From a virus: a stretch of DNA of 22,746 nucleotides. This document shows, piece after piece, positions 5,514 to 20,167 of the stretch (position 1 is its first letter; the number at the start of each line of letters is the position of its first letter). Made by a program: the position numbers and the translations under genes. The stretch is taken from positions 1-22,746 of the IMG/VR virus record IMGVR_UViG_3300046520_000307; one strand, written 5' to 3'. A model generated the notes under the pieces. It saw nothing but the letters and a program-made list of their open reading frames with translations, did no database searches and was not told where the DNA came from.

Positions 5514-6049
5514 GCCAGATCCTCCGGTTGAAAGTAGTGATCCTCGTTGCCGGTACCGGTACTGCCGTCGACATTCAAGTACAGCGTGCCGGGCGGTTCG
5601 TTGGGCCATAGCCACTCGACTTCGCCGAGGTAGATCTGCTGGGTCCACTCCACCGTCCACACGGTGTAGCCATCCAACTCCGGCTTGGTCCAGTCCTGAC
5701 GCGAAGCCACGAACTGCGCCTGTTCGACGTTATCCAATCCCCAGGTCTGCGCCCTGAGCAGGATCGCGATCTGTGTAGCCAGCTGCGCGCCCAGTTGCTG
5801 ATGCCGCGCCAGTTCGGGCCCGACGATGGCCCGCGCTTCAAAACGCAGCACCAGCACCGTTTCGCCGGTGCCAATGTCTGTCCCGGGTTCAAATTCAACC
5901 GGTTCCAGAAACACGGCGGGCAGCGGCAGTCCGACCCTGCCATCAATTTCTGGACAGGTCGCCACAAAATTCAGCTGCGGCAACGCCTGTCGAATGTGCT
6001 CTTCGATCGCCGCGTACAGGACATCGAGCGTCAGTGATTGATCAGACAC
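5480..6049 (-). CDS. Conserved phage tail-region protein (function unassigned)
   Basis: This 189-aa protein lies between the gpZ-like and gpV genes. Residues about 1-150 look like a compact alpha/beta domain (LPLPAVFLEPVEFEPG, VLRFEARAIVGPELA), followed by a Gly/Thr/Asn-rich tail. The position, after the head-tail connectors and before the spike, is that of tail-completion or terminator proteins. That role is inferred from order only. The start is GTG at 6049 with AAGGA 8 nt upstream, overlapping the gpZ-like stop by 8 nt. Its 3' end overlaps gpV by 34 nt in another frame, so both proteins are encoded there. Confidence 0.82.
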   Translation of the reverse strand: MSDQSLTLDVLYAAIEEHIRQALPQLNFVATCPEIDGRVGLPLPAVFLEPVEFEPGTDIGTGETVLVLRFEARAIVGPELARHQQLGAQLATQIAILLRAQTWGLDNVEQAQFVASRQDWTKPELDGYTVWTVEWTQQIYLGEVEWLWPNEPPGTLYLNVDGSTGTGNEDHYFQPEDLAWDTPALNTTG

Positions 6050-6674
6050 GAGTCGTTCCTTTCAGGTATTTGTGCAGTTCAAAGTTCAGCTCCTGCTTGA
6101 GCACGACCAGCAGACGCTCGTCGGCTTTTTGCGCCCAGGCATTGAACGGCCCTTCGACGTCTTCGAGCGAGACCTTGGCCTTGGCCAGTGGAAAGCGATC
6201 ATCGTTTTCCGCGATCCAGCCCGAACTCGTGCCTCCAGCCGCGGACGCGCCGCCGGGATAGTCATCCGGATTGAAATGTTTGCTGGCTGTACGGATCCAG
6301 ATGTCCGCCTTGTTGCCATACACTTTTTTGTAGAAGGCGCCTTGATACCGCCGCCCCGCCACCGAGACACCGGCCTTGCCCTGCCTGGGCTTCCCTACCC
6401 GGCTGGCGTCCATCGCGTTGACACCGAACCAGAGCTTTCCTGAGTCGGCATTACCTTTGATGGGGTAACTGCGCAGACGCTGACGCACCGCCCGCAATGC
6501 GATGCGCTCCTGCCGGCTGGCATCCCTGGCAATATGCGTGGCCAGCCAGCCCAAGGTCTTGTTGATCGCTCGGCGCTGAGCGGCGGCAACCGCCTTGGGC
6601 ACCACTCTGGCCAAGTCGTTAAACGCCTGCATGTCCTTGGCCGAGAGCTGCAAGGTGATTGGCACGGCGCTCAT
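6042..6674 (-). CDS. Minor tail protein Z-like (lambda gpZ family, tail connection)
   Basis: This 210-aa basic protein resembles lambda gpZ (Minor_tail_Z, 192 aa), which acts at the head-proximal end of the tail during head-tail joining. Diagnostic features are the N-terminal helix region (VVPKAVAAAQRRAINKTLGW), a basic stretch about residues 50-70, and the later segment VAGRRYQGAFYKKVYGNKAD. The ATG at 6674 overlaps the stop of the preceding connector gene (ATGA) and has GAGG 8 nt upstream. Confidence 0.88.
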   Translation of the reverse strand: MSAVPITLQLSAKDMQAFNDLARVVPKAVAAAQRRAINKTLGWLATHIARDASRQERIALRAVRQRLRSYPIKGNADSGKLWFGVNAMDASRVGKPRQGKAGVSVAGRRYQGAFYKKVYGNKADIWIRTASKHFNPDDYPGGASAAGGTSSGWIAENDDRFPLAKAKVSLEDVEGPFNAWAQKADERLLVVLKQELNFELHKYLKGTTRV

Positions 6675-6985
6675 GGATTTAACCTCAGGATCAACGCCAC
6701 CATGCCATCACCACCCGGTTCAATGCCGATCAAGGTGTATTCGCCCCCGCCATCCAAGGCGGGTAGCTCGATCTGCACCGTTTGCGCTTTTTCAACGCCT
6801 GCCGCATCAGCCACACGGACCTCAAAGCAAGGTTCACGCAGCCCCGTTTTCGTTCGCCCAATTTTTGGCTGTAACCAGGGCGCCGAGAACATGCCCAGCA
6901 CCCGCCGACCTTCGATGTAGCCGACGTCGGCCAAAGTGTCGAACACCACGCTGTCGATCTGCGCGACCAGGTCTCGAAAGGCCAT
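6671..6985 (-). CDS. Head-tail joining protein, lambda gpFII-like
   Basis: This 104-aa protein lies directly after the major capsid gene, where lambda carries FII. It has a helical N-terminus (MAFRDLVAQIDSVVFDTLAD) and a beta-rich remainder (LREPCFEVRVADAAG, ALDGGGEYTLIGIEPGGDG) that fits the Phage_attach fold, which joins the completed head to the tail. The length is close to gpFII (117 aa). The ATG at 6985 starts 2 nt after the capsid stop. A 14-codon upstream extension would overlap the capsid gene and is less likely. The assignment depends partly on gene order. Confidence 0.78.
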   Translation of the reverse strand: MAFRDLVAQIDSVVFDTLADVGYIEGRRVLGMFSAPWLQPKIGRTKTGLREPCFEVRVADAAGVEKAQTVQIELPALDGGGEYTLIGIEPGGDGMVALILRLNP

Positions 6986-6987
6986 GC

Positions 6988-7983
6988 TCAGAGCGTCAGC
7001 AGGATCTGCGCCCTTGGCCGCGTGCACAGGTGCAACGGGTTGGATTGGGCTTCACCGGCCATGCCCTTGTTGAACGGCAGGGGCTCCAGCTTGCTGTAAT
7101 ACGGCAGGCCTTGGGTGTTGGCCGTTTCCATGTAGTCCGCCGGAGCAAAGCAGGAGATGTACAACTCCGGTACGCCTTCCGGAATCAACAGCGCTTGATC
7201 GTCATGGATGAATGCCACCCCAGCGATGCGTCCGCGGTAACGCTCCCAAACAATGCCACCCAGTTCGAAACTTTCCCGTGCATCCCCCCGCAGCTCTGCA
7301 GCCTGCTGCGTGTTTTTGTAGGTCTCTTCAACCGATTTGTGCGTCACCAGCTTGTTCCAGAAATTCTTGCCGCAGAACGCCCGTGACCCCGAACTGGTGA
7401 CATTGCCCAGTTCATCTTCCTGCATGTCCAGCGCTTCGGCGCACTTGACCCGGATCTTCGTCGCCGAATCGTCCAGTCCCATGGACAAGACTTGTTGCTC
7501 CACACCGAACGTCTGATAGATGTTCAGCAGGACCGTCGAGCCATCCGCATCGAGGATCAGGCCGTTCAGTGCGCCCATGCGTTGAAACTCATGGGTGGCA
7601 TCGAGCTGACGCTTGGCTTTGCTCAGGCGCGTATTGACCACGCCCTGTACGGCCTGCAATTCGGTCGTCGTACCAAAGGCGCGAATGCCCTGGATCTCGT
7701 CAGCCTTGATGGTGAAACGCTGCGGCAGGTGCACGGTGTTAAACGGAATCATCTGACGCTTGCTGCCACCCACGACCAGACCCGAGGTACCACGCTCACC
7801 CGCCGGCACCAGGGCCAGGGTGTTGCCGTCCTTTTCGATTTGTACGGTCAGGGTGCTGATGCCTTCCTCGCGAAACAGGCCCAGGCTGCTGATGCGACCC
7901 GGCAAGTATTCCTGCTCATTGATTGCCGCGGTGAGCGAAGACACGGAAAAAACATCGTCGGTAAAAATGCCAATGTCGGCCAT
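6988..7983 (-). CDS. Major capsid protein, lambda gpE family
   Basis: This 331-aa HK97-fold major capsid protein (Phage_cap_E) builds the icosahedral head. Visible features are the N-terminus MADIGIFTDDVFSVSSLTAA, the central VPAGERGTSGLVVGGSKRQM, and the C-terminal ELYISCFAPADYMETANTQG with PYYSKLEP, all typical of gpE relatives (lambda gpE is about 341 aa). The ATG at 7983 has a strong ribosome binding site (GGAGAG, 8 nt upstream). A terminator-type hairpin sits just upstream, so this gene is translated from its own strong leader rather than coupled to gpD. Confidence 0.95.
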   Translation of the reverse strand: MADIGIFTDDVFSVSSLTAAINEQEYLPGRISSLGLFREEGISTLTVQIEKDGNTLALVPAGERGTSGLVVGGSKRQMIPFNTVHLPQRFTIKADEIQGIRAFGTTTELQAVQGVVNTRLSKAKRQLDATHEFQRMGALNGLILDADGSTVLLNIYQTFGVEQQVLSMGLDDSATKIRVKCAEALDMQEDELGNVTSSGSRAFCGKNFWNKLVTHKSVEETYKNTQQAAELRGDARESFELGGIVWERYRGRIAGVAFIHDDQALLIPEGVPELYISCFAPADYMETANTQGLPYYSKLEPLPFNKGMAGEAQSNPLHLCTRPRAQILLTL

Positions 7984-8045: not shown

Positions 8046-8386
8046 TTAACGAACAATCACGAATTGAGCCGCCAGAGCGATCTCGGCCTCAGCGTCGAGA
8101 CCGGTCAAATGCACCTCGCTGACCTCGGCCAGCCGTACCACCGCACTGGCTCGACGCTCTTCGGTGGATTCACCCAGTGGCCCGTAGAGGATGCACGTCG
8201 CCACTTCCGTACCATCGATGGCGACGGGATCGTAGGGCGCAAACTCATTGGTCGCGGTGACCAGCCCCAGCACCTGGCCGGCATTCAAGGCAGCACCCGC
8301 GGCCACCAGAATGGATTCACGAGAGATCTTCCCGGCCCCTTCGGAGAGCAGAAACTCGCCAGCGTGCAGCGTTTCGTACTTTACGG

Positions 8387-8390
<4 letters not shown>
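8046..8390 (-). CDS. Head decoration protein, lambda gpD-like
   Basis: This 114-aa protein of the HDPD family trimerises on the expanded capsid surface and stabilises it against DNA pressure. The segments YETLHAGEFLLSEG and AAGAALNAGQVLGLVT are typical. The length matches lambda gpD (110 aa) and the location between the protease and major capsid genes is the lambda order. The ATG at 8390 overlaps the protease stop (ATGA) and has AGGAG upstream. Confidence 0.93.
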
Positions 8391-9555
<1,165 letters not shown>

Positions 9556-9559
<4 letters not shown>

Positions 9560-11040
9560 GTTTGATCCTTGTCGTCGAGCGCCTGAAGCAAATCGACGAG
9601 CGTGCTGTAGTTGAGGCCCTTGCCGCGAGCCCGTTCGGCATCGGCGGCGTTTTCTTCGTCCACCGTTTCCGCGTCATACCCGGTGCGCAGGACCATCTCG
9701 CTGCGCGAGGCGAAGCCTGCGTTGACTTCCATCGTGCGTGACTGAACATCCTGAACCGGATGGATGTAGGCCCAGCCTTGCGGTACCCAGCGCGTACGCA
9801 GGTATTCACGGCGGCGCTGGGCGTAGTCCGGCAACAACACGGCGCCACTGAGCACCGCCATGTCCATCCAGGCCGCTCGCACCGGGCGACACAGCTGGTG
9901 CACATACACCCCAAATTGCAGTTGCTCCAGACGACGCCGAAACTCGGTAAGCACCACCCGTAGCGCCCGGTCATTCACATCACGCATGTCGCCGGTGAGA
10001 ATCTCGTACGGCATCCCCGCACCGGCGGCCGCGGCCATCAATTGCTGACGCATGAAATCCGAATAGTTGTTGCCCGCGTCCGGCGGCGTGGAAAACTCGA
10101 CCTCCTCGCCCGGCAACAACTCCTGCATGGTCCCGGGCTCCAGCGCAACCATGGGCGTGAAGCCGTCCGAGGCCAGGTTCAACGGTGCGCCGGTGACGGG
10201 ATCGATCGGGGTTTGAATGTCATCGGGCGATGGCTTTTTGATGAAGCCGGCGAACAGGTTGGCCACTTCCTGGCGGAACAACACCGCATCGTCGTAGTTG
10301 TCCAGGCTGCGCAGGCGCTTGAGCACCGGCGACAAACGCGGCAAGCCACGCAACTGACCCGGCTCGACCGGTTCAAAAATGTGCAGCACCTGGCTGGCCG
10401 GCACGCGCACCAGTTGGTTGTAACCACTGTTCAATGACGAGGAGTCGCCCGGGTGGGAACGGTACATCCAGTACGCGACCCGACGACTGTCCGGACTGAA
10501 CTCGATCCCGGCACGGATCACATTGCCGTTGCGTGCTGCCTCGAACTTGTCGTGCGGCACAAATTCCGGGGCCAGCACCTGAAGTTGCAACGGCACCACC
10601 AGCCCCTCATCGAGACTGCGTGGACGCAAACGGACGAAACATTCGCCAGCCGTTTCCACCGTCCGGGCGATCAGTGCCTGCTGCCCATAGAAGTCGGTCA
10701 GATCATCGGCGTCGGACTCTTCGGCCCAATCGGCCCAGAGCTCCTGCAGCAGGTGCCGGAGTTCATCGTCCTGGGTTTTCGGCCGTGGCGTGATGCCGGT
10801 GCCGATCAGGTTGCTGACCCGTTTGTCGATGACGTTGAAGGCGTACGGGTCGTTGCGCACCGCCGCCCGGGAACGTGAGCGCAGGTTGCGCAATGCCGGA
10901 ATGGCAATGCTGTTGAACCCGGCGTCGGGTGCATCCCAACTGGCGGAGCGACGCCCTTCGGCGGCCCCTTCGTAACTGGCCTTGATGTTCGACGGGAGCA
11001 GGAAACCGCTGCGACCCAAGGTGGGGAACTGACGAGCCAT
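9556..11040 (-). CDS. Portal protein, lambda gpB family
   Basis: This 494-aa portal protein (Phage_portal_2) forms the dodecameric ring at one capsid vertex through which DNA is packaged and ejected. Diagnostic segments are the N-terminal SWDAPDAGFNSIAIPALRNL, RDPYAFN-type RNDPYAFNVIDKRVSNLIGT, and the C-terminal AGAGMPYEILTGDMRDVN with NDRALRVVLTEFRR. Lambda gpB is 533 aa. The ATG at 11040 overlaps the gpW-like stop (TAATG) and is preceded by AAGGGA. The 3' end overlaps the protease gene by 4 nt. Confidence 0.96.
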
Positions 11041-11246
11041 TAGAGTCCCTTGCCTCCATGATAAAGCCGCACGACACGCGACCGAGGCCCCGCCGCCGCG
11101 ATCAGCGAGCTGCGAATTTCGTCGCGCGCCCTGAGCAGTTCGTCGATGTCACGGTACTCAACGTTTCGATCCGCGTAGCGCACGATTTTCTCGCCGCGCG
11201 CGATTGCCGTCTCGACCGCATCGAGTTGCTGTTGGGTAAAGGCCAT
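11040..11246 (-). CDS. Head-to-tail connector gpW-like
   Basis: This 68-residue protein has the same length as lambda gpW, which binds below the portal and is needed before tail attachment. It starts MAFTQQQLDAVETAIARGEK and has a central amphipathic helix (YRDIDELLRARDEIRSS) and a basic C-terminus, matching the gpW shape. The ATG at 11246 was chosen for length. A GTG at 11285 overlapping the terminase stop would add 13 residues without family similarity. Position between terminase and portal is the lambda order. Confidence 0.88.
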   Translation of the reverse strand: MAFTQQQLDAVETAIARGEKIVRYADRNVEYRDIDELLRARDEIRSSLIAAAGPRSRVVRLYHGGKGL

Positions 11247-11285
11247 AAGGGATCGCTCTAAAAGAGAAAAACTGCGTGCTTCCAC

Positions 11286-13292
11286 TCAGCGCCGCTTGAG
11301 GTAGCCGCTGCTGGAGCTTCGACGTTGTGGGGGGCGTGCTACGGGCAGCGGTGCCACGGCCGGCTTGGCCGGTTGCGGTACGGAATCAGCAGGTGGCTGC
11401 CGGGGTGTTACCGGAGCGCTAACACGTTCGACCGTGACGGGTTTCTCGCCCGGTGGCGCCGCTTGAAACAGCGCATTTCTCACCCGCTCCCAGTCGTGTT
11501 CCTTGTAGCGGTTCAGCCCCAGGTAATGCGCCATCGCCAGGCTGTACACCATCAGATCGAGCGCCTCGTTGCGCTCCGCCTTGCCCTTGACCCATTCGAT
11601 TTTTTTGTAGCCTTTGACGTAGCGGGTCACCTTGCGCTCCGCGACACACTGGGCAAAAAAATCGTCAGGCAGGTCGTTGGCAAAATGCAGCGCTCCGGGA
11701 CCGTCTTCCACCGGATAGCGGTTGTAAATCCAGTCCTTGGCGGTGTCGGTGCCGACGAACCACAGCTCCACGCCCTTGCGCTCGGTCTGGCCTTTCCAGG
11801 TGACGTCCATCATCGACGGTCGCTGGGCAATCACCGGGCGACCCGGCCTGCTCGCGCCCTTGATCGCGAAGATGTTGCGCCAACGCCGCAACCGGCAGAA
11901 CCGATACACCTCGTCGGTGTGATTACCGCCGGAGTCGATGCCGGCCGCCCGGATCGTCAGCTCCACACCGCACGGATGTGGGTAACGCACCTTGAGTTTG
12001 TCATCGAGCGCCGACCAAGTGCGTTCGTCGGAGGGATCGCCCCAGATCACCTGGTAGTCGATGATCCAGCGCTCCATACCGACGCCCCAACCGATCACCA
12101 TGAACTCCAGCCGGTTGGCCTGAACATCGACCGAGCCCGTGAGCATCAGCACGGCAAACGGCATCGAACCCAGGCCATAGGTTTCCAGGCGTGCCCGCGC
12201 CATCAGCACATCGGCTTTGGTTTGCTCTTGAGCACTGTCCCAGACCTTGGCCAGTCGGGTGTTATAGAACACCTGCATGGGTTCCAGATCACCGCGGGAC
12301 ATGGCTTTTTTGGCCTTCTCGAACTGCTTGGCCAGTGACGCCCAGCCGGTCCAGCCCGGCGGCGAGTACAACGCATTGAGGTTGAAGCCGACGGTTTCGC
12401 CATCGCCCTGAGCATGCGCGCGCCACTCGCCCTTGGCCAACATCTCGCCCTTGTGATGCTCTTCGATCAGCACGTCACACTCAGGCCCGGCGCACTCGTA
12501 GTGCGCCAGCTGACAATCCGCCGAGTAATGCAGGCGCTCCCATTCGAGGACCTGCATGTGCCCACAGGTCGGACATGGCACGTAGTAAAAACGCTGGTCG
12601 CTGGTTTCGAACAGATCGGCAATGCGCGAGGCGCCCCGGATCGTCGGCGAACTGGAAAAGTAGAACTTGGCGTTACGGCCAAAGGTACTGCCCCGGGTTT
12701 CAGCCAGTTCAATGGGGTCGCCCTCCTCGCCAACGTCCACCACCCAGCGATCCACTTCATCACCATAGATGTAGCGAGCCGACAGCTCGGACAGGTTGGC
12801 CGCTGAGCCGGCGGTGGTGATGTACAACGAACCACCTTCGAACTCCTTGGTGTCCATGGTGTTGCGCGCATCGCGTGCACGGTTCGCCGCCACCCGCTCG
12901 CGCAACACCGGGGTGGCTTTGATGGTCTTGCCGATGCGCGACGAGACCCGCTTGGCCAACCCCAGGCTGGGCAACAGCGTGAGAATGTTCGACGGCGCCA
13001 TGTGGATCAGGCCGCCGATCCAGTTCAAGGCAATCTGGGTTTTCATCAACTGCGAGGCGACCATGGTCACCACGCGCTTGCACGGATGTGCCGGTGACAG
13101 GCAACGCATGGGCTCGCGGGCATACGGGGTGCGCGCGGTGCGGTACTGCCCGGGCTCGGCGGCGCCCGCATCACGCGGGATACGCATGTACTCGTCAGCC
13201 CACAGGTCAATCCAGACATCCGGCTCTGGCTGCAACCCACGGAAATACGCCTCACGGTACACCTGTGCACCGTCGGGCATTTCCGCTGACAT
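11286..13292 (-). CDS. Terminase large subunit, lambda gpA (GpA) family
   Basis: This 668-aa packaging motor and nuclease cuts concatemeric DNA and pumps it into the prohead. The N-terminal ATPase has a deviant Walker A region at about 79-85 (ASQLMKT) and a Walker B at 174-179 (YIYGDE). A zinc-binding knuckle follows (C240, C243, C267, C272). The nuclease half begins near LTGSVDVQANRLEF with likely metal ligand D389, and AAGIDSGGNHTDEVYRFCR follows. The C-terminal about 60 residues are Pro/Arg-rich, probably the portal-binding tail. Lambda gpA is 641 aa. It starts 3 nt after the small-subunit stop. GpA-family enzymes generally cut at cos sites, relevant to the repeats upstream. Confidence 0.96.
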   Translation of the reverse strand: MSAEMPDGAQVYREAYFRGLQPEPDVWIDLWADEYMRIPRDAGAAEPGQYRTARTPYAREPMRCLSPAHPCKRVVTMVASQLMKTQIALNWIGGLIHMAPSNILTLLPSLGLAKRVSSRIGKTIKATPVLRERVAANRARDARNTMDTKEFEGGSLYITTAGSAANLSELSARYIYGDEVDRWVVDVGEEGDPIELAETRGSTFGRNAKFYFSSSPTIRGASRIADLFETSDQRFYYVPCPTCGHMQVLEWERLHYSADCQLAHYECAGPECDVLIEEHHKGEMLAKGEWRAHAQGDGETVGFNLNALYSPPGWTGWASLAKQFEKAKKAMSRGDLEPMQVFYNTRLAKVWDSAQEQTKADVLMARARLETYGLGSMPFAVLMLTGSVDVQANRLEFMVIGWGVGMERWIIDYQVIWGDPSDERTWSALDDKLKVRYPHPCGVELTIRAAGIDSGGNHTDEVYRFCRLRRWRNIFAIKGASRPGRPVIAQRPSMMDVTWKGQTERKGVELWFVGTDTAKDWIYNRYPVEDGPGALHFANDLPDDFFAQCVAERKVTRYVKGYKKIEWVKGKAERNEALDLMVYSLAMAHYLGLNRYKEHDWERVRNALFQAAPPGEKPVTVERVSAPVTPRQPPADSVPQPAKPAVAPLPVARPPQRRSSSSGYLKRR

Positions 13293-13295
13293 GGG

Positions 13296-13886
13296 TTAAC
13301 TCGCTGCAGTCAAAGAATGAATAAGGTCCGCCGAAGACATGCGCTCAGCATCCTCCAACACACGGCGCAGTGCGGCGGTGAGGTGCTTCTCGATTTGCCA
13401 GTGATCGCTCATGGCGGCCAGCTCGGGCGCCAACTGTGGCGGCATGCCCAGCAACAGGTCGCGCAACATCCGCCCCGTGGTGTAAGCGGCCGTTTTCACC
13501 GCCTCCAACTCGACATGAGTGCCTCGATCCTTGTGAAACTCGCTTTCGCTCATGCGCGACTCAAAGAACTCACGGTACGCACGAGATTCTTGGAAGTCCG
13601 GAATGCCTTCGACAGGCAATGGTGCCTGACGCGAAACAGAGGATGGTGGTTCATGCTCAATGGGCGAGGCTGAGTTGTGCCCTTCCGGTCTGCGTTCGCG
13701 CTCATGCCGCGCCGCCATATTGGCTTTGCTCGGGTCCGAGGTGCTGAACAGGAGTCGATCCGTTGCCTCGACATCCACCATGCCGTCCGCCGTGAGCACC
13801 AGTCGACCCGTCTTGGCCAGCTTCGACACATAGGGTTTCGACCAGCCTTGGCGTGTGGCGAACTCCGCTTTGGTTAATACTTTCAT
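13296..13886 (-). CDS. Terminase small subunit, Nu1-like
   Basis: This 196-aa DNA-recognition subunit of the terminase has an N-terminal winged helix-turn-helix (about 4-45: LTKAEFATRQGWSKPYVSKL). A low-complexity linker (about 55-90) follows, then a helical oligomerisation part (TTGRMLRDLLLGMPPQLAPE) resembling the same region of lambda gpNu1 (181 aa). The HTH would bind packaging-site repeats; two repeat arrays lie immediately upstream. The ATG at 13886 has AAGG at proper spacing; the ATG at 13892 two codons earlier is possible but has that AAGG too close. It is followed 3 nt later by the large subunit. Confidence 0.9.
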   Translation of the reverse strand: MKVLTKAEFATRQGWSKPYVSKLAKTGRLVLTADGMVDVEATDRLLFSTSDPSKANMAARHERERRPEGHNSASPIEHEPPSSVSRQAPLPVEGIPDFQESRAYREFFESRMSESEFHKDRGTHVELEAVKTAAYTTGRMLRDLLLGMPPQLAPELAAMSDHWQIEKHLTAALRRVLEDAERMSSADLIHSLTAAS

Positions 13887-13900
13887 GTCCATGCCTTGCG

Positions 13901-14480
13901 GTTAACCCGGTCGAGCCAAGAGTTAACCGGTTGAGTTTTTCTGAAAAACGTTCGAGTTTTCATCCAAAGTGCTCGAGTTTTCATGAAAAACAGCTGAGTT
14001 TTCTCGAAAAAGGCTCGAGTTTTCAGCGCGACGACTGAGTTAACTCCTTGCAAAATCCCCCCTTAAAAACGGCTACAGGCCACGGCATGCGTGGCTTTCA
14101 GCCCGGTTAACCCGCCGAGCCAACCAGTTAACCGAGTAATTTAGTCGGTTAACTCCTTGGTTAACCGGGCTACAAGCCACGCACTACGGGGCTTTCAGCG
14201 GTTTTTTCGGCCAACCGAGTTAACCAGGTTAACTCACTAGTAAATCGGCTATAGGTCACGGCCCGTCTGGCTCTCAGCCCGGTTAACCAGCCAACTCCTT
14301 AGTTAACTTCTAGAATAGCCCCTTGGTTAACCGGGCTACAGGCCACGTACTACGGGGCCTGTAGCGGTTTCTACGGCAAACACTGGTTAACCAGGTTAAC
14401 TCATCGGTTAACCGGGCTGTAGACCACGTCCTGCGCGGCTTGCAGCGATTTTTCCGATGAAATCGAGTTAACCAGTTAAC
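13901..14480. repeat. Cluster of GTTAAC palindromes with five hairpin units (possible packaging or regulatory array)
   Basis: Seventeen GTTAAC hexamers, often extended to GGTTAACC, lie within 580 bp. Five related hairpins sit at about 14071-14103, 14168-14200, 14247-14279, 14334-14366 and 14415-14447. Consensus arms are GGCTACAGGCCACG and CGGGGCTTTCAGC around a 5-nt loop. The fourth is a perfect 10-bp inverted repeat (14335-14344 with 14356-14365). Each unit has GTTAAC on both sides and units recur every 79-97 bp. No ORF explains the region. It lies directly upstream of the terminase genes, the position of cos/pac in lambdoid phages. Function is inferred; an iteron-like binding array or RNA structure in the late transcript are alternatives. 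Confidence 0.88.
13931..14036. repeat. Five tandem 21-bp repeats upstream of terminase small subunit
   Basis: The core GAGTTTT recurs at 13933, 13954, 13975, 13996 and 14017, an exact 21-bp period; a sixth degenerate GAGTT follows about 20 bp later. The fuller unit reads CTCGAGTTTTCATGAAAAAC with drift. Twenty-one bp is two helical turns, placing each copy on the same face of the DNA, as expected for cooperative protein binding. The array ends about 45 bp from the start codon of the Nu1-like gene, resembling the R sites of lambda cosB in place and number. Binding by the terminase is an inference. Confidence 0.88.
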
Positions 14481-14519
14481 CAATGTTTGAAAACTCCCGC
14501 TAACAAACTCTCGCGAGTC

Positions 14520-14765
14520 TTATGCCCCGTGTTCCTTGGAAGTTGCCAGGGTCCCCGCTGGTTTGGGAAACATCGGCAATCCACACAAGCGGATGTCCCG
14601 TGGCGGCTGAAGACCGTGCACGATGGCTGCGGCATACACCGCGGCCGTTGCTGTTGGGACTGGTGGATAGGCTTCCTGCATCTGCCCTTGATCAACGCGT
14701 TTAAAACGGACGCAGTCGTCATAGACCACCACTTCCCACGATGAGATCGCTTGTTTGTGGCTCAT
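14520..14765 (-). CDS. Hypothetical phage protein
   Basis: This 81-aa protein overlaps the end of the head-fibre-like gene (ATGA), strong evidence that it is translated. I do not recognise a family. The sequence begins MSHKQAISSWEVVVYDD, has a central PPVPTATAAVYAAAIVHGLQ that could be one amphipathic helix, and ends in a basic KEHGA tail. It is the last gene before the repeat arrays preceding the terminase. A role in virion decoration together with the fibre-like protein is only a guess from the coupling. Confidence 0.68.
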   Translation of the reverse strand: MSHKQAISSWEVVVYDDCVRFKRVDQGQMQEAYPPVPTATAAVYAAAIVHGLQPPRDIRLCGLPMFPKPAGTLATSKEHGA

Positions 14766-15828: not shown

Positions 15829-16245
15829 AAAGGCGTCTCGCTGCGTTCACAGCAACACACGCTGCTATAAAAGCAAATCTATTCCGCGCGGAAAAGGCCT
15901 TTTTTAAAACTAAAGCGAAACCTCACCCAACTTCGATGCAGCCCTTCGAGACAAGCATGAACCGGCCATTAACTGCCATTCGTGACCGACAGCATGCGGC
16001 CAAAGACTCCCGCTGATGCCCCAATAAATAGTTATTGCAGGGAGCAACGTTCACCAACAGAGATAAGTCCACGAATCGGTATAACCGCTGCCGTACATGA
16101 TTATGGAAAGAGATCGCTTTTGGACACTGATTGCTTGCCGGTCGAAGAAGCGATAGCGAGCACTGTACAGGTGAGAGGGTTATGGCAATATGACCCCATG
16201 CGTCGTTGAGGAATGCCTCATGCTGGCGTACACAAAGGACGTGAA
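15829..16245. other. Gene-free divergent region between late leader and hamA
   Basis: These 417 bp carry no convincing gene. Two abutting 12-bp palindromes lie at 15882-15893 (TTCCGCGCGGAA) and 15892-15903 (AAAAGGCCTTTT). On the minus strand a TTATAG (15870-15865) about 40 nt before the first terminator is a possible -10 of a late leader promoter, but no good -35 is seen. On the plus strand TATAAC at 16080-16085 could be a -10 for hamAB, again with a poor -35. A small hairpin TGAGG/CCTCA is at 16207-16220, before the hamA ribosome binding site. The GC content falls noticeably from about 15860 rightward, marking the left edge of the cargo island. Confidence 0.5.
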
Positions 16246-17058
16246 ATGACATCGCTGGCAGCCCATCTCACCTGGCTTGAGCCCAATGGCACCTATACCT
16301 CCGCCTGTGGGCGCTCAATCCCAGTTTATCGATTCAACCACAACGTATTAGACATTTCCATAATGTCCAGTTGGGCGAGACATTTTAGAAATCACTACTG
16401 TAGCGACCAAGAATTACGCTACTTAAAAAACCCCACAAAGACTAATTCTGAATATCTGCTCACGGAAAAATTCCCAAGCCAATCGATTGCGCCAGGCCCG
16501 AGTATTCGGGCCGGGGATTTCGCAGAGATTCTAATAGCTGACTACCTTCAATATATTAGAAACTACGCAGTCCCTCGAACGCGCTATGATCGGAAGATCA
16601 TTGCGAATGAATCCAGCAAGGGATCAGACGTAATCGCGTTCAAAAAAAATCCGAACGTAATCAGCGACAAAGATGAATTGTTAATATTTGAAGTAAAAGC
16701 AAAAGCATCTGAAAATACAAAAATTAACGTCCTTCAGAATGCAATTGATGACTCCATTAAAGATGAAATCCGGATTGCAGAATCTTTGAACGCTATGCGT
16801 CAGAGGTTATATGATCGACAAGATTTTGATGGAGTCGACTTGATAGAACGCTTCCAGCGCGAACCTGATTATCCTTGCAAGCGCAAGTATGGCGCGGCTG
16901 CGGTTTACACATCGTCATCGCTACACGAGAGCGTAGTATGTACCTCACATGCTGGCAATCACCCTAGTGCCGACAGCCTAGAATTACTCATAGTGAGCGG
17001 GGTTGAACTGATGACACTGATTCATGAGCTTTATCGGAGAGCGGCAGATGAAGCTTGA
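16246..17058 (+). CDS. hamA: HamA-type effector nuclease of a Hachiman-like defence system (DUF1837)
   Basis: This 270-aa protein resembles HamA/AbpA (DUF1837), the nuclease partner in Hachiman-type anti-phage systems. The putative PD-(D/E)XK-like core is visible: RAGDFAEILIADYL (E94), then KGSDVIAF (D128), then LLIFEVKAKAS (E149-x-K151). Before the core lies an about 85-residue region (WLEPNGTYTSACGRSIPVYR) and after it a helical C-terminus. From published work on the family, HamA cleaves DNA when activated with HamB. The ATG at 16246 has AAAGGA upstream; 11 further codons to 16213 lack a usable site. It overlaps hamB by 11 nt. GC content is clearly lower than in the phage genes, indicating separate origin. 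Confidence 0.87.
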   Translation: MTSLAAHLTWLEPNGTYTSACGRSIPVYRFNHNVLDISIMSSWARHFRNHYCSDQELRYLKNPTKTNSEYLLTEKFPSQSIAPGPSIRAGDFAEILIADYLQYIRNYAVPRTRYDRKIIANESSKGSDVIAFKKNPNVISDKDELLIFEVKAKASENTKINVLQNAIDDSIKDEIRIAESLNAMRQRLYDRQDFDGVDLIERFQREPDYPCKRKYGAAAVYTSSSLHESVVCTSHAGNHPSADSLELLIVSGVELMTLIHELYRRAADEA

Positions 17059-20000
17059 AAACAAGGGTCGTGAAATCCTTGATATTACACGTGCTAAAGC
17101 AAAACAGTATGAGTTTGGAATCGAAGAGAAATATCACGTTGAGCTTCCTCAGGATCCTAAGCGATTGTTAGTGTTCACGATTGGAGTGCTCGGGGAGTTG
17201 GCTGCACTTGAATCCCGCCCCTCAGATGAGCGCGAAGAACACAAGCAAGTACTGAAGCAACAATTAGTGCTGGCTGGACAATTTTTTGAATCCTTAAGTC
17301 TGTCTCGCCTAACGATCGAAATAGATGAATATCTAAAAATCTTGAGCTCGGCTTCCTATTATCTTGCCGACATGCCAGGCAGTTCGCTGGTTCTAGCTAG
17401 AGCGATTTCAAAAACTCCCGCAGAGCTGACAGACAGCAGGATAGAAAGCCTGTTAGTGTGGCTACTAAAATCCGAACTGAATGAAAATTTCGTTCTCGCT
17501 TCATCAGGTGGCTATAACGAACAGATTCGCAAAACAGCAATGGCTTATCGCGCTTTTATGAATATGGAGGCGGATCTATCAGACGTGGAAGACGAAATAC
17601 ATGAGCTCAGAAGTACAGTCTATGCGAGCGGCTCAGATCGTGAGGTGCTGCTTACCGACACTATTAATGCTCTAATTAAAAGAAAAATCAATAATTCGTC
17701 ACTGGTCTGTCTACCTAAATACACCGGCCTGGAACAGAATCGTTGGCACCAAGCGCTTGCAAACGACAAGTTTATGAAGGAGTTCTGGCCTGCACAGCGC
17801 TTGGTGGGAAGCCTGGGTGTGCTGAAGGGTGAGTCAGCAGTTATGCAAATGCCAACTAGTGCGGGTAAGACCAAGTCTATCGAGCTTATAATTCGGAGCG
17901 GATTTCTCTCAGGTCGTGCAAAACTAGCCGTGATTGTCGCCCCCTTCCGAGCATTGTGCCGAGAAATTACTCAGGGCTTCATGGCATCGTTTGAGCATGA
18001 CTCCGTCAATATCAACGAGCTCAGAGATGTTACCAGTGTGGATGAGGATGAGCAGGAATTTTTAAAATTTTTGCTTGGTGAAGATTTCAAAGGTAAACAC
18101 GATCATACTGTAATTGTTTCAACTCCAGAAAAGTTAGTTTACCTGCTTAGGCATGAGCCTTCTCTGGCCAAACAAATTGACTTACTGATATTTGACGAAG
18201 GCCATCAATTTGATGGCGGAAAAAGGGGGGTAACCTACGAACTTTTGATTGCTTCGCTGAAGAAAACAATACCCGAGAAGGCACAAAAGGTGTTGATTTC
18301 AGCGGTTATGTCTAATGCAGAAACAATTGGCGACTGGCTGAATGGGGAGTCCAGCCTAAGCATCCAGGGTAGTAATTGGCTGCCATCTATCAAAAGCGTA
18401 GCTTTTCTCAGCTGGTTTCACGATATGGGCCAACTGAGTTACCTCCGGCCAGACAATATACGCGACAGCGGCTTATATGTTCCCAAGATCATCCAACAGT
18501 CAAGTCTTGAGCTGCGAGGGAGAGAAAGAAAGGCTCGGTTTTTTCCAATAAAAACCGAAGTTCAGTCAATCTCCTGCTATTTGGGACTTCGACTTTGCCA
18601 GCAGGGGCCAACAGCTATATTTTGCGGGGATAAGAGAACAGTCATTAGTCTGTGTTCAACCGTTGTAGATGTGTACAAACGAGGATTATCACTTCCTCCG
18701 CCAAGCTCAGTCTCAGATACCGCTGAGCTTCAGAAAATTGCGTTTCTGTCACATCTACACTTTTCCGATCACCACATTTTTTCTGAAGCTATCCCCCTAG
18801 GAGTCTTGCCTCACAGTTCAGCCATTCCAAATGGTCTCAGAATCGCGGTTGAATGGGCTATGGACAAGGGTGCTGGAAACCTCGTCATATGCACCTCGAC
18901 TCTCGCCCAGGGTGTAAATCTTCCAATCAAATACCTTCTAATCTCAAACTTGATGCAGGGTGGTAGAAGGATTTCCACTAGGGAGTTCCAAAACCTAATT
19001 GGTCGCGCTGGACGGGCAGGCTATCACACTGAAGGTGGAATAATTTTCACCGACCCTAAAATTTACGACAACCGTTTTCACTGGAAAGGACGTGAAAAAT
19101 GGGAAAGAACTCTCAAACTTTTAAACTTTAATAACGCCGAAGAGTGCATGAGTAGCTTAATGGAAATCGCTCAGCCATTCCCTCTGATAAAAGGTGAAAA
19201 TGACGTTCTCAATTTCATCTCCAGCCCGTTTAGGGAAAGAATATTATGGCGTGAATGGTGCGAGAAAAACGGAATCCCTGAGAAAAGCCTTACTGAACTT
19301 ATGCAAGACTTGGATAAAAAAGAGCAAGTCCTTCATTCAATTGAAAGCTATTTCATGTCAACTTTGAAGGATGACAGTTCTTTATTATCAACAGAGTACT
19401 TTCTAGACCTAGCTTACGAAACTCTTGCCTACCATCTAGCGAGCGACGTCACTAAAGATCATTTAGTGGCAATATTTGCTGCCATTCACTCAAGGTTAAG
19501 TGTGATACCCGTAGAAAAATTCTCCTATTATGGACGAACCCTGCTTGGCCTCGATCAACTTACTTACATCGAAGACTGGATAGACTCTCAAATATTCGAG
19601 CTTGAATTTTGTGACTCCCCTCAGGATCTCCTTGAAGTATGCTGGCCCTTAATCACGATATTTTCCACAAAAAAGATCACCTCTAATATCTATCCGCAGG
19701 AGCAAACGGTAAACATCGCCACTCAATGGTGCAATGAAGCAAGTTATGCAGAGATTCTGACCTATGCCAAACTAAAAAATTTTTCCGTCAAAGCAAAAAG
19801 CATTTATTATTCGATTACTCAAGAGCATATTGTAGATTTCTGCTCTGCTCTCTCTTACGATGGAATGTTAATAATTGGAGCTGTCGGCGACATTGTCGAA
19901 GGCAAGGCCTTGAATGAAACATTGCTTAACCATGCCAGATTACTTCAAAATCAGTTAAAACTCGGCCTATCTGACGAATTCAAAATTTGGATTCACGGAC

Positions 20001-20167
20001 AAGGATTCGCTGATAGAGAGGTGTGCAAGTTCATCAGCCAGCAATTAGAAAGCGCTCGAGAAAACAAAAATATTATTGACTACAATTTATTAAAAAACAA
20101 CAAGCAACTACTAAAGGAAGCACTTTCAAGATTACCTAGTGCGTTTTCATTGCCAAAATTTAGTTAA
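17048..20167 (+). CDS. hamB: HamB-type Ski2-like helicase of a Hachiman-like defence system
   Basis: This 1039-aa superfamily 2 helicase partners HamA. It has a helical N-terminal region (1-about 240) and then the motor: Walker A PTSAGKT (269-275), Ia APFRALCRE (298-306), Ib STPEKL (358-363), II DEGH (383-386), III SAVMS (418-422), V TSTLAQGVNLP (616-626) and VI QNLIGRAGRAG (648-658). About 380 C-terminal residues without familiar motifs may bind HamA or DNA. All core motifs look intact. In the family, HamB senses aberrant DNA and licenses HamA. The ATG at 17048 has GGAGAG 7 nt upstream; an ATG-type start at 17024 is possible but poorer. It is AT-richer than the phage genes and convergent with the Q gene. 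Confidence 0.88.
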   Translation: MKLENKGREILDITRAKAKQYEFGIEEKYHVELPQDPKRLLVFTIGVLGELAALESRPSDEREEHKQVLKQQLVLAGQFFESLSLSRLTIEIDEYLKILSSASYYLADMPGSSLVLARAISKTPAELTDSRIESLLVWLLKSELNENFVLASSGGYNEQIRKTAMAYRAFMNMEADLSDVEDEIHELRSTVYASGSDREVLLTDTINALIKRKINNSSLVCLPKYTGLEQNRWHQALANDKFMKEFWPAQRLVGSLGVLKGESAVMQMPTSAGKTKSIELIIRSGFLSGRAKLAVIVAPFRALCREITQGFMASFEHDSVNINELRDVTSVDEDEQEFLKFLLGEDFKGKHDHTVIVSTPEKLVYLLRHEPSLAKQIDLLIFDEGHQFDGGKRGVTYELLIASLKKTIPEKAQKVLISAVMSNAETIGDWLNGESSLSIQGSNWLPSIKSVAFLSWFHDMGQLSYLRPDNIRDSGLYVPKIIQQSSLELRGRERKARFFPIKTEVQSISCYLGLRLCQQGPTAIFCGDKRTVISLCSTVVDVYKRGLSLPPPSSVSDTAELQKIAFLSHLHFSDHHIFSEAIPLGVLPHSSAIPNGLRIAVEWAMDKGAGNLVICTSTLAQGVNLPIKYLLISNLMQGGRRISTREFQNLIGRAGRAGYHTEGGIIFTDPKIYDNRFHWKGREKWERTLKLLNFNNAEECMSSLMEIAQPFPLIKGENDVLNFISSPFRERILWREWCEKNGIPEKSLTELMQDLDKKEQVLHSIESYFMSTLKDDSSLLSTEYFLDLAYETLAYHLASDVTKDHLVAIFAAIHSRLSVIPVEKFSYYGRTLLGLDQLTYIEDWIDSQIFELEFCDSPQDLLEVCWPLITIFSTKKITSNIYPQEQTVNIATQWCNEASYAEILTYAKLKNFSVKAKSIYYSITQEHIVDFCSALSYDGMLIIGAVGDIVEGKALNETLLNHARLLQNQLKLGLSDEFKIWIHGQGFADREVCKFISQQLESARENKNIIDYNLLKNNKQLLKEALSRLPSAFSLPKFS

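Follow-up and report, generated by a model that had tools for sequence, protein, structure and literature searches.

The terminase locus and the GTTAAC array

The window, by which we mean the whole 22,746-nt stretch analyzed here, is an IMG/VR virus record (IMGVR_UViG_3300046520_000307) that comprises the late half of a lambda-like temperate phage, for which relatives point to Pseudomonas as the probable host. Its terminase genes lie next to each other on the minus strand: terS, encoding the small subunit (13296..13892; phrog_57, E=1.3e-28), and terL, encoding a 668-aa large subunit of the lambda gpA type (11286..13292; Pfam GpA_ATPase, 1.9e-83, and GpA_nuclease, 6.2e-107). A gpA-family TerL with an adjacent TerS is the combination expected beside a lambda-type cos. 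In an AlphaFold2 model, TerS has helices at residues 8-15, 19-27 (the predicted recognition helix), and 41-50, and the nearest folds were BldC and phage Xis, both weak (E above 0.1 in the fold search). Comparison with solved structures by sequence returned nothing useful, and neither the sequence nor the fold searches made connected TerS to gpNu1. The window also encodes a holin, a Q-type antiterminator, and an integrase. Additionally, a Hachiman defense system (HamA, PADLOC E 6e-104; HamB helicase, E 0) occupies 16213-20167 on the plus strand, opposite to the late genes and between the holin and Q.

Directly upstream of terS in this Pseudomonas-type prophage, the region 13901..14480, to which no strand is assigned, contains exactly 17 copies of GTTAAC in 580 bp, as an earlier note on this DNA had counted. 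The expectation under dinucleotide shuffling is 3.0 copies for the entire 22.7-kb window and 0.41 when the 580-bp region itself is shuffled (maximum of 3 in 2000 shuffles), so that the number is indeed far above chance. The recurrent context that the note described was also recovered, the extended form GGTTAACC being present at 6/17 sites and GGTTAAC at 9/17. Other triple clusters of GTTAAC in Pseudomonas genomes looked mostly unrelated by sequence, apart from known TerS loci and a locus in genome G140 considered below. Five related 33-nt dyads with 5-nt centers are interspersed among the GTTAAC sites, all on the plus strand, at 14071..14103, 14168..14200, 14247..14279, 14334..14366, and 14415..14447, so that the five hairpins of the earlier note were all located. 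The distances between the GTTAAC sites flanking dyads 2, 4, and 5 measured 59, 60, and 60 bp, as the note had put them.

The array has none of the identical repeats with regular unique spacers of a CRISPR, which the note had already discounted; the repeats are 6 bp, their spacings range from 8 to 117 bp, and the dyads have diverged. An Rfam search of the array returned no family above the gathering threshold and a plant miRNA match at chance level only. By DNA similarity, the array had no counterpart in plasmids and only single-hairpin matches in phages, through which the dyad was recognized as a dispersed element.

Two features of the region had been overlooked in the earlier note. Within the array stretch and nearest to terS are five 21-bp direct repeats with phased A/T tracts of the AAAACTCGAGC type (~13930..14040, minus strand; autocorrelation peak at 21). 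They are also found in one relative, L014 (autocorrelation peak 21), and were not seen in the other relatives displayed. By analogy with lambda, in which I1 and I2 are intrinsically bent (PMC4856287), these repeats could supply an intrinsic bend. The second feature, just past the array, is a cosN/cosQ-like core at 14497-14555 on the minus strand. It consists of a putative cosN region (14497..14532) with a GTTAGCGG core and a AAGACTCGCG block, proposed from homology and family-wide conservation upstream of the first site, and of a GGGACCCTGG block (14546..14555) at the putative position of cosQ, kept in nearly all family members shown. The corresponding family block, GGGGACCCTGG ... AAACCCGCG ... 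TTAGCGG, adjoins the start of nearly all loci shown, and by its position we read it as a putative cosQ/cosN. The record of phage Haddon ends within the stretch homologous to 14497-14532, although this is an assembly end with an inverted artifact. Specifically, the linear Haddon record (L087/L092) ends ~100 bp upstream of terS, and between its ends about a dozen bases of Lodos are missing and an inverted 18-nt stretch has been added, a discrepancy that is possibly the trace of a cohesive overhang.

Relatives and the switching of the hexamer

The earlier note proposed looking for the array upstream of the terminase in related phages. Close relatives comprised 13 viral contigs from a TerS scan (TerS 75-87%) and a further one, L104 (TerS 73%), from a scan of IMG/VR for the core pattern. 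All 14 (TerS 73-88% identical) carry 11-15 GTTAAC, alongside three similar dyads each in a single orientation. Their GTTAAC spacings are quantized, mostly to 8, 9, 11-13, 21, 43, 59-62, and 67-81 bp. The distance from a conserved GTTAGYGG core (putative cosN) to the start of the array is 16 bp throughout, and in 14/14 viral contigs with the core pattern the array adjoins the relative's terS. In L014, an inserted ORF parts the array from terS while the array is still joined to the core, which ties the array to the core rather than to the start of terS. This ORF, within ~800 bp upstream of position 2157, resembles a KilA-N protein by eye.

We then considered 164 loci upstream of terS from IMG/VR, phages, and Pseudomonas genomes, counting all 6-mers with none chosen beforehand. 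Nearly every locus repeats one hexamer, either GTTAAC, GTGAAC, GTCAAC, or TTGAAA, and at the same position the distant relatives have GTGAAC (86 loci), TTGAAA (38), or GTCAAC (13). The class hexamer is restricted in position, with a density of 19-30 per kb, compared with 0.26-1.05 per kb for the remainder of the loci, and its sites number 3-8 in the relatives compared with 11-17 in the clade of the window. Across the 164 loci the repeated sites lie between the cosN-like core and terS, and their covariation with TerS, set out below, suggests that TerS binds them.

The recognition helix of TerS differs by class: it reads SKPYVSKLA or SRAYVSKL with GTTAAC, AKSYVSKLA with GTGAAC, SRQYVGKL with GTCAAC, and APSYITWLK with TTGAAA. 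ITWL is present in 21/21 TTGAAA rows, Q20 in 8/8 GTCAAC rows, and S20 with K19 in 18/18 GTGAAC rows, while 13/14 GTTAAC rows have P20 or A20; this rule for residue 20 was noticed post hoc, and its one exception, L210, combines two GTGAAC with two GTTAAC in its array. Mixed GTGAAC and GTTAAC arrays with a GTGAAC-type helix were seen in L210, L207, L184, and L173, which are possible intermediates in a change of specificity. The 12 TerS positions most informative on the hexamer are all within residues 9-48, most of them in 15-28, and coincide with the helix-turn-helix predicted in the AlphaFold2 model. In contrast, a tree of TerS residues 60-198 required 11 changes of hexamer class (minimum 3), indicating that the class does not follow the C-terminal half of TerS; this was a quick tree, and one data set served both to define the classes and to relate them to TerS. 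Moreover, the combination of GTTAAC with a P/A20 helix recurs in three lineages, namely the window clade, L167, and P. aeruginosa phages. In a test controlled for phylogeny, all six independent pairs for TTGAAA agreed with the helix (sign test, p 0.031), this being the only significant class, the others having too few pairs and none opposing. On this comparative evidence, the recognition helix appears to set site specificity, and the pattern of helix and hexamer is the one expected if TerS and cosB formed a specificity pair that is passed on as a cassette. The same logic is followed in lambda by the contacts of the recognition helix with R3 and by the lambda-21 chimera (PMC9026076).

Dyads and alternative readings

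The dyads are unevenly paired, with 11/14, 10/14, 7/14, 12/14, and 9/14 Watson-Crick pairs in dyads 1 to 5, so that the third is poorly paired and the fourth, which the earlier note took for perfect, is near-perfect. As single-stranded DNA, dyads 4 (z -5.05) and 2 (z -2.6) folded better than shuffles, and dyads 1, 3, and 5 did no better. The note also took the largely kept pairing to suggest selection on structure and proposed a covariation check. Paired cells reached 71.8% compared with 69.6% in shuffles, an excess that lends this idea slight support, while the arms lose pairing in many copies and no strong RNA covariation was found among the hairpin copies. Given such uneven pairing and covariation barely above shuffles, we do not claim an RNA structure.

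One copy or a few of the dyad consensus, GCTACAGGCCACGTANTCCGTGGCCTCCAGC, can be found in numerous phages, small plasmids, and genomes of Pseudomonas. Related phages have it between cos and the late gene upstream, Autographiviridae have it downstream of terL, and further copies lie next to 22-bp iterons or, on a plasmid, upstream of rep. Immediate neighbors of this kind, either 22-bp iterons or palindromic repeats of another type, were seen in the unrelated replicons L114:1197-1304, L141:1411-1533, L147:1403-1533, and L143:1454-1577, and the plasmid in question is NZ_CP075178.1 (L264). Among Pseudomonas genomes, in L135, L138, L146, L148, L151, L152, L154, L155, L157, L158, and L162 it is 17 bp from a long ORF of 296 aa (354 aa in L154), usually between converging genes, for which a family search returned no identification. 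An abundant host REP element was rejected as the source of the hairpins, with dyad matches in 27/149 Pseudomonas genomes and at most 4 in each, both strands included. phiAH14a, a headful phage with a weak hairpin match, is unrelated by packaging. Window hits of the model R1 are circular, since it was built partly from four window hairpins. In the window clade the dyads set the ~60-bp gaps between GTTAAC clusters, and our preferred view is that they derive from a dispersed Pseudomonas palindrome that the array has taken up as spacers; that they act as a bend or a protein dock, like the IHF site of lambda, is a guess by analogy.

Three readings other than packaging bear on these observations. 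The first, raised in the earlier note, is an RNA element: in the late message, the hairpins would serve processing, termination, or control of terS translation, with GTTAAC incidental to stem pairing. The 653-nt late-strand RNA does fold far better than shuffles (z -6.84), all hairpins share one orientation to the late genes, and several related phages have a nearly identical hairpin in the interval from the upstream late gene to cos. However, the self-complementary GTTAAC inflates folding by itself, the instability of hairpins 1, 3, and 5 as DNA, the weak covariation, and the lack of a notable Rfam match tell against it, and in L014 the array is separated from terS by a gene. Moreover, most of the distant relatives tested retain the hexamers without the hairpins, and the reading does not predict that the hexamer tracks the TerS helix. 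It may hold for the hairpins and is not needed for GTTAAC, and as an account of the array we regard it as very unlikely.

We give similarly little credence to an operator cluster through which TerS or another repressor would control the late operon at terS rather than packaging. The location directly upstream of terS and the covariation with the TerS helix-turn-helix would both fit autoregulation, but terS is in mid-operon, the array in L014 remains adjacent to the cosN-like core but has been parted from terS, the G140 locus has an array and core without terS, and packaging is the use to which known lambda-type TerS proteins put such sites (PMC9026076). Finally, an iteron array bound by a phage replication initiator, another option in the earlier note, is exceedingly improbable despite the short repeats, the near-helical 21-bp spacing, and the occurrence of the dyad family next to 22-bp iterons and close to rep on a plasmid, as no replication gene was found among the neighboring proteins searched by profile, the place of the array is fixed relative to the cosN-like core, and the hexamer class covaries with TerS.

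A putative expanded cosB

We consider it highly probable that the array represents cosB, the half of a lambda-type cos to which TerS binds, in a form expanded in the window clade. The hexamer class and the TerS recognition helix switch in concert, which makes GTTAAC very probably the sequence that TerS recognizes. Of the options in the earlier note, a packaging or maturation site is the one strongly supported, by conservation at cos, by this co-switching, and by the abutting cosN/cosQ-like core; very probably that guess was right in kind, the site being an expanded lambda-type cosB with GTTAAC read by TerS. Repeats beside terS are in themselves no proof of binding, as is clear from phage SF6, in which the DNA-binding domain of TerS hardly distinguishes the repeats formerly regarded as its targets (PMC4737164).

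Mechanistically, the winged helix-turn-helix of TerS would read GTTAAC as GGTTAAC or AGTTAAC half-sites, and TerS molecules would load cooperatively on clusters of sites spaced by 8-9, 12-13, and 21 bp. The clusters, ~60 bp apart with dyad spacers between them, would then be gathered into one nucleoprotein complex, perhaps with wrapping of the DNA. This complex would anchor TerL over the putative cosN, where the cohesive ends would be cut and packaging started.

In lambda, cosB is composed of R3-I1-R2-R1, with gpNu1 as TerS and gpA as TerL (PMC9026076, PMC4856287). The order cosQ-cosN-TerS sites-terS-terL and the gpA-type TerL are shared with lambda (PMC9026076, PMC4856287), as are repeated, partly inverted sites and, as predicted here, an N-terminal winged helix-turn-helix in TerS whose helix sets site specificity. 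Unlike lambda, with its three 16-bp R sites, the window has 17 six-bp palindromes over 580 bp, dyad spacers, and a different sequence, and the IHF consensus WATCARNNNNTTR had zero matches in the nine family arrays scanned. An IHF site is not required of all lambda-type cos, since that of N15 is also without one (PMC9026076). The cos of N15 and of PICI is compact, terS starting ~90-105 bp from the end as it does in the P. aeruginosa relatives of this family, but has one site (a single R3) as opposed to 4-17 here (PMC9026076, PMC4669245). In lactococcal 936-type phages, the cos region likewise has short direct repeats, 5-6 in number, together with several sites putatively used by terminase (PMC6105707); they are a different phage family with fewer repeats, and linked TerS-helix switching is not known to be reported for them. 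SPP1 and SF6 also have repeats beside terS, and their TerS ring may wrap bent DNA, but they use pac and headful packaging, and SF6 TerS has little preference for the repeats (PMC4737164).

The G140 locus (L267, G140:C20) has a complete array and cos core at 8256-8760, with 17 GTTAAC between 8256 and 8640 and four dyads by eye, and neither terS nor terL was found within the 18 kb compared. The array lies between a Dsr1 defense gene and a DUF6119 gene (neighboring genes at 5876-7720 and 8876-12703), with an HNH gene close by. No direct repeats of at least 14 bp were found flanking the island, and no integrase was recognized near the array in the part examined. The locus may be a prophage remnant or a packaging-borrowing defense island, in the latter case possibly comparable to PICI, satellites that have a cos without terS (PMC9026076, PMC4669245).

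A further and speculative proposal, to which we give a small chance, is that the long TerS-loading array is a new kind of cos, that the dispersed Pseudomonas dyad, also present at iteron origins, is an architectural module for DNA folding, and that amplification gives an edge in terminase competition against cos-borrowing elements such as the terS-less, defense-linked cos of G140. The expansion to 11-17 sites raises the question of why one clade has so many when its relatives have 3-8.

To our knowledge, lambda is one of few phages in which the genetics of how TerS selects its own genome have been worked out in detail. With ~60 distinct TerS variants, four hexamer classes, and a shuffled C-terminal half, this family would make a recognition code, with residues 15, 19, 20, 23, 24, and 29 of TerS as its candidates, directly testable, and would allow cos sites to be found by sequence alone in prophages and satellites.
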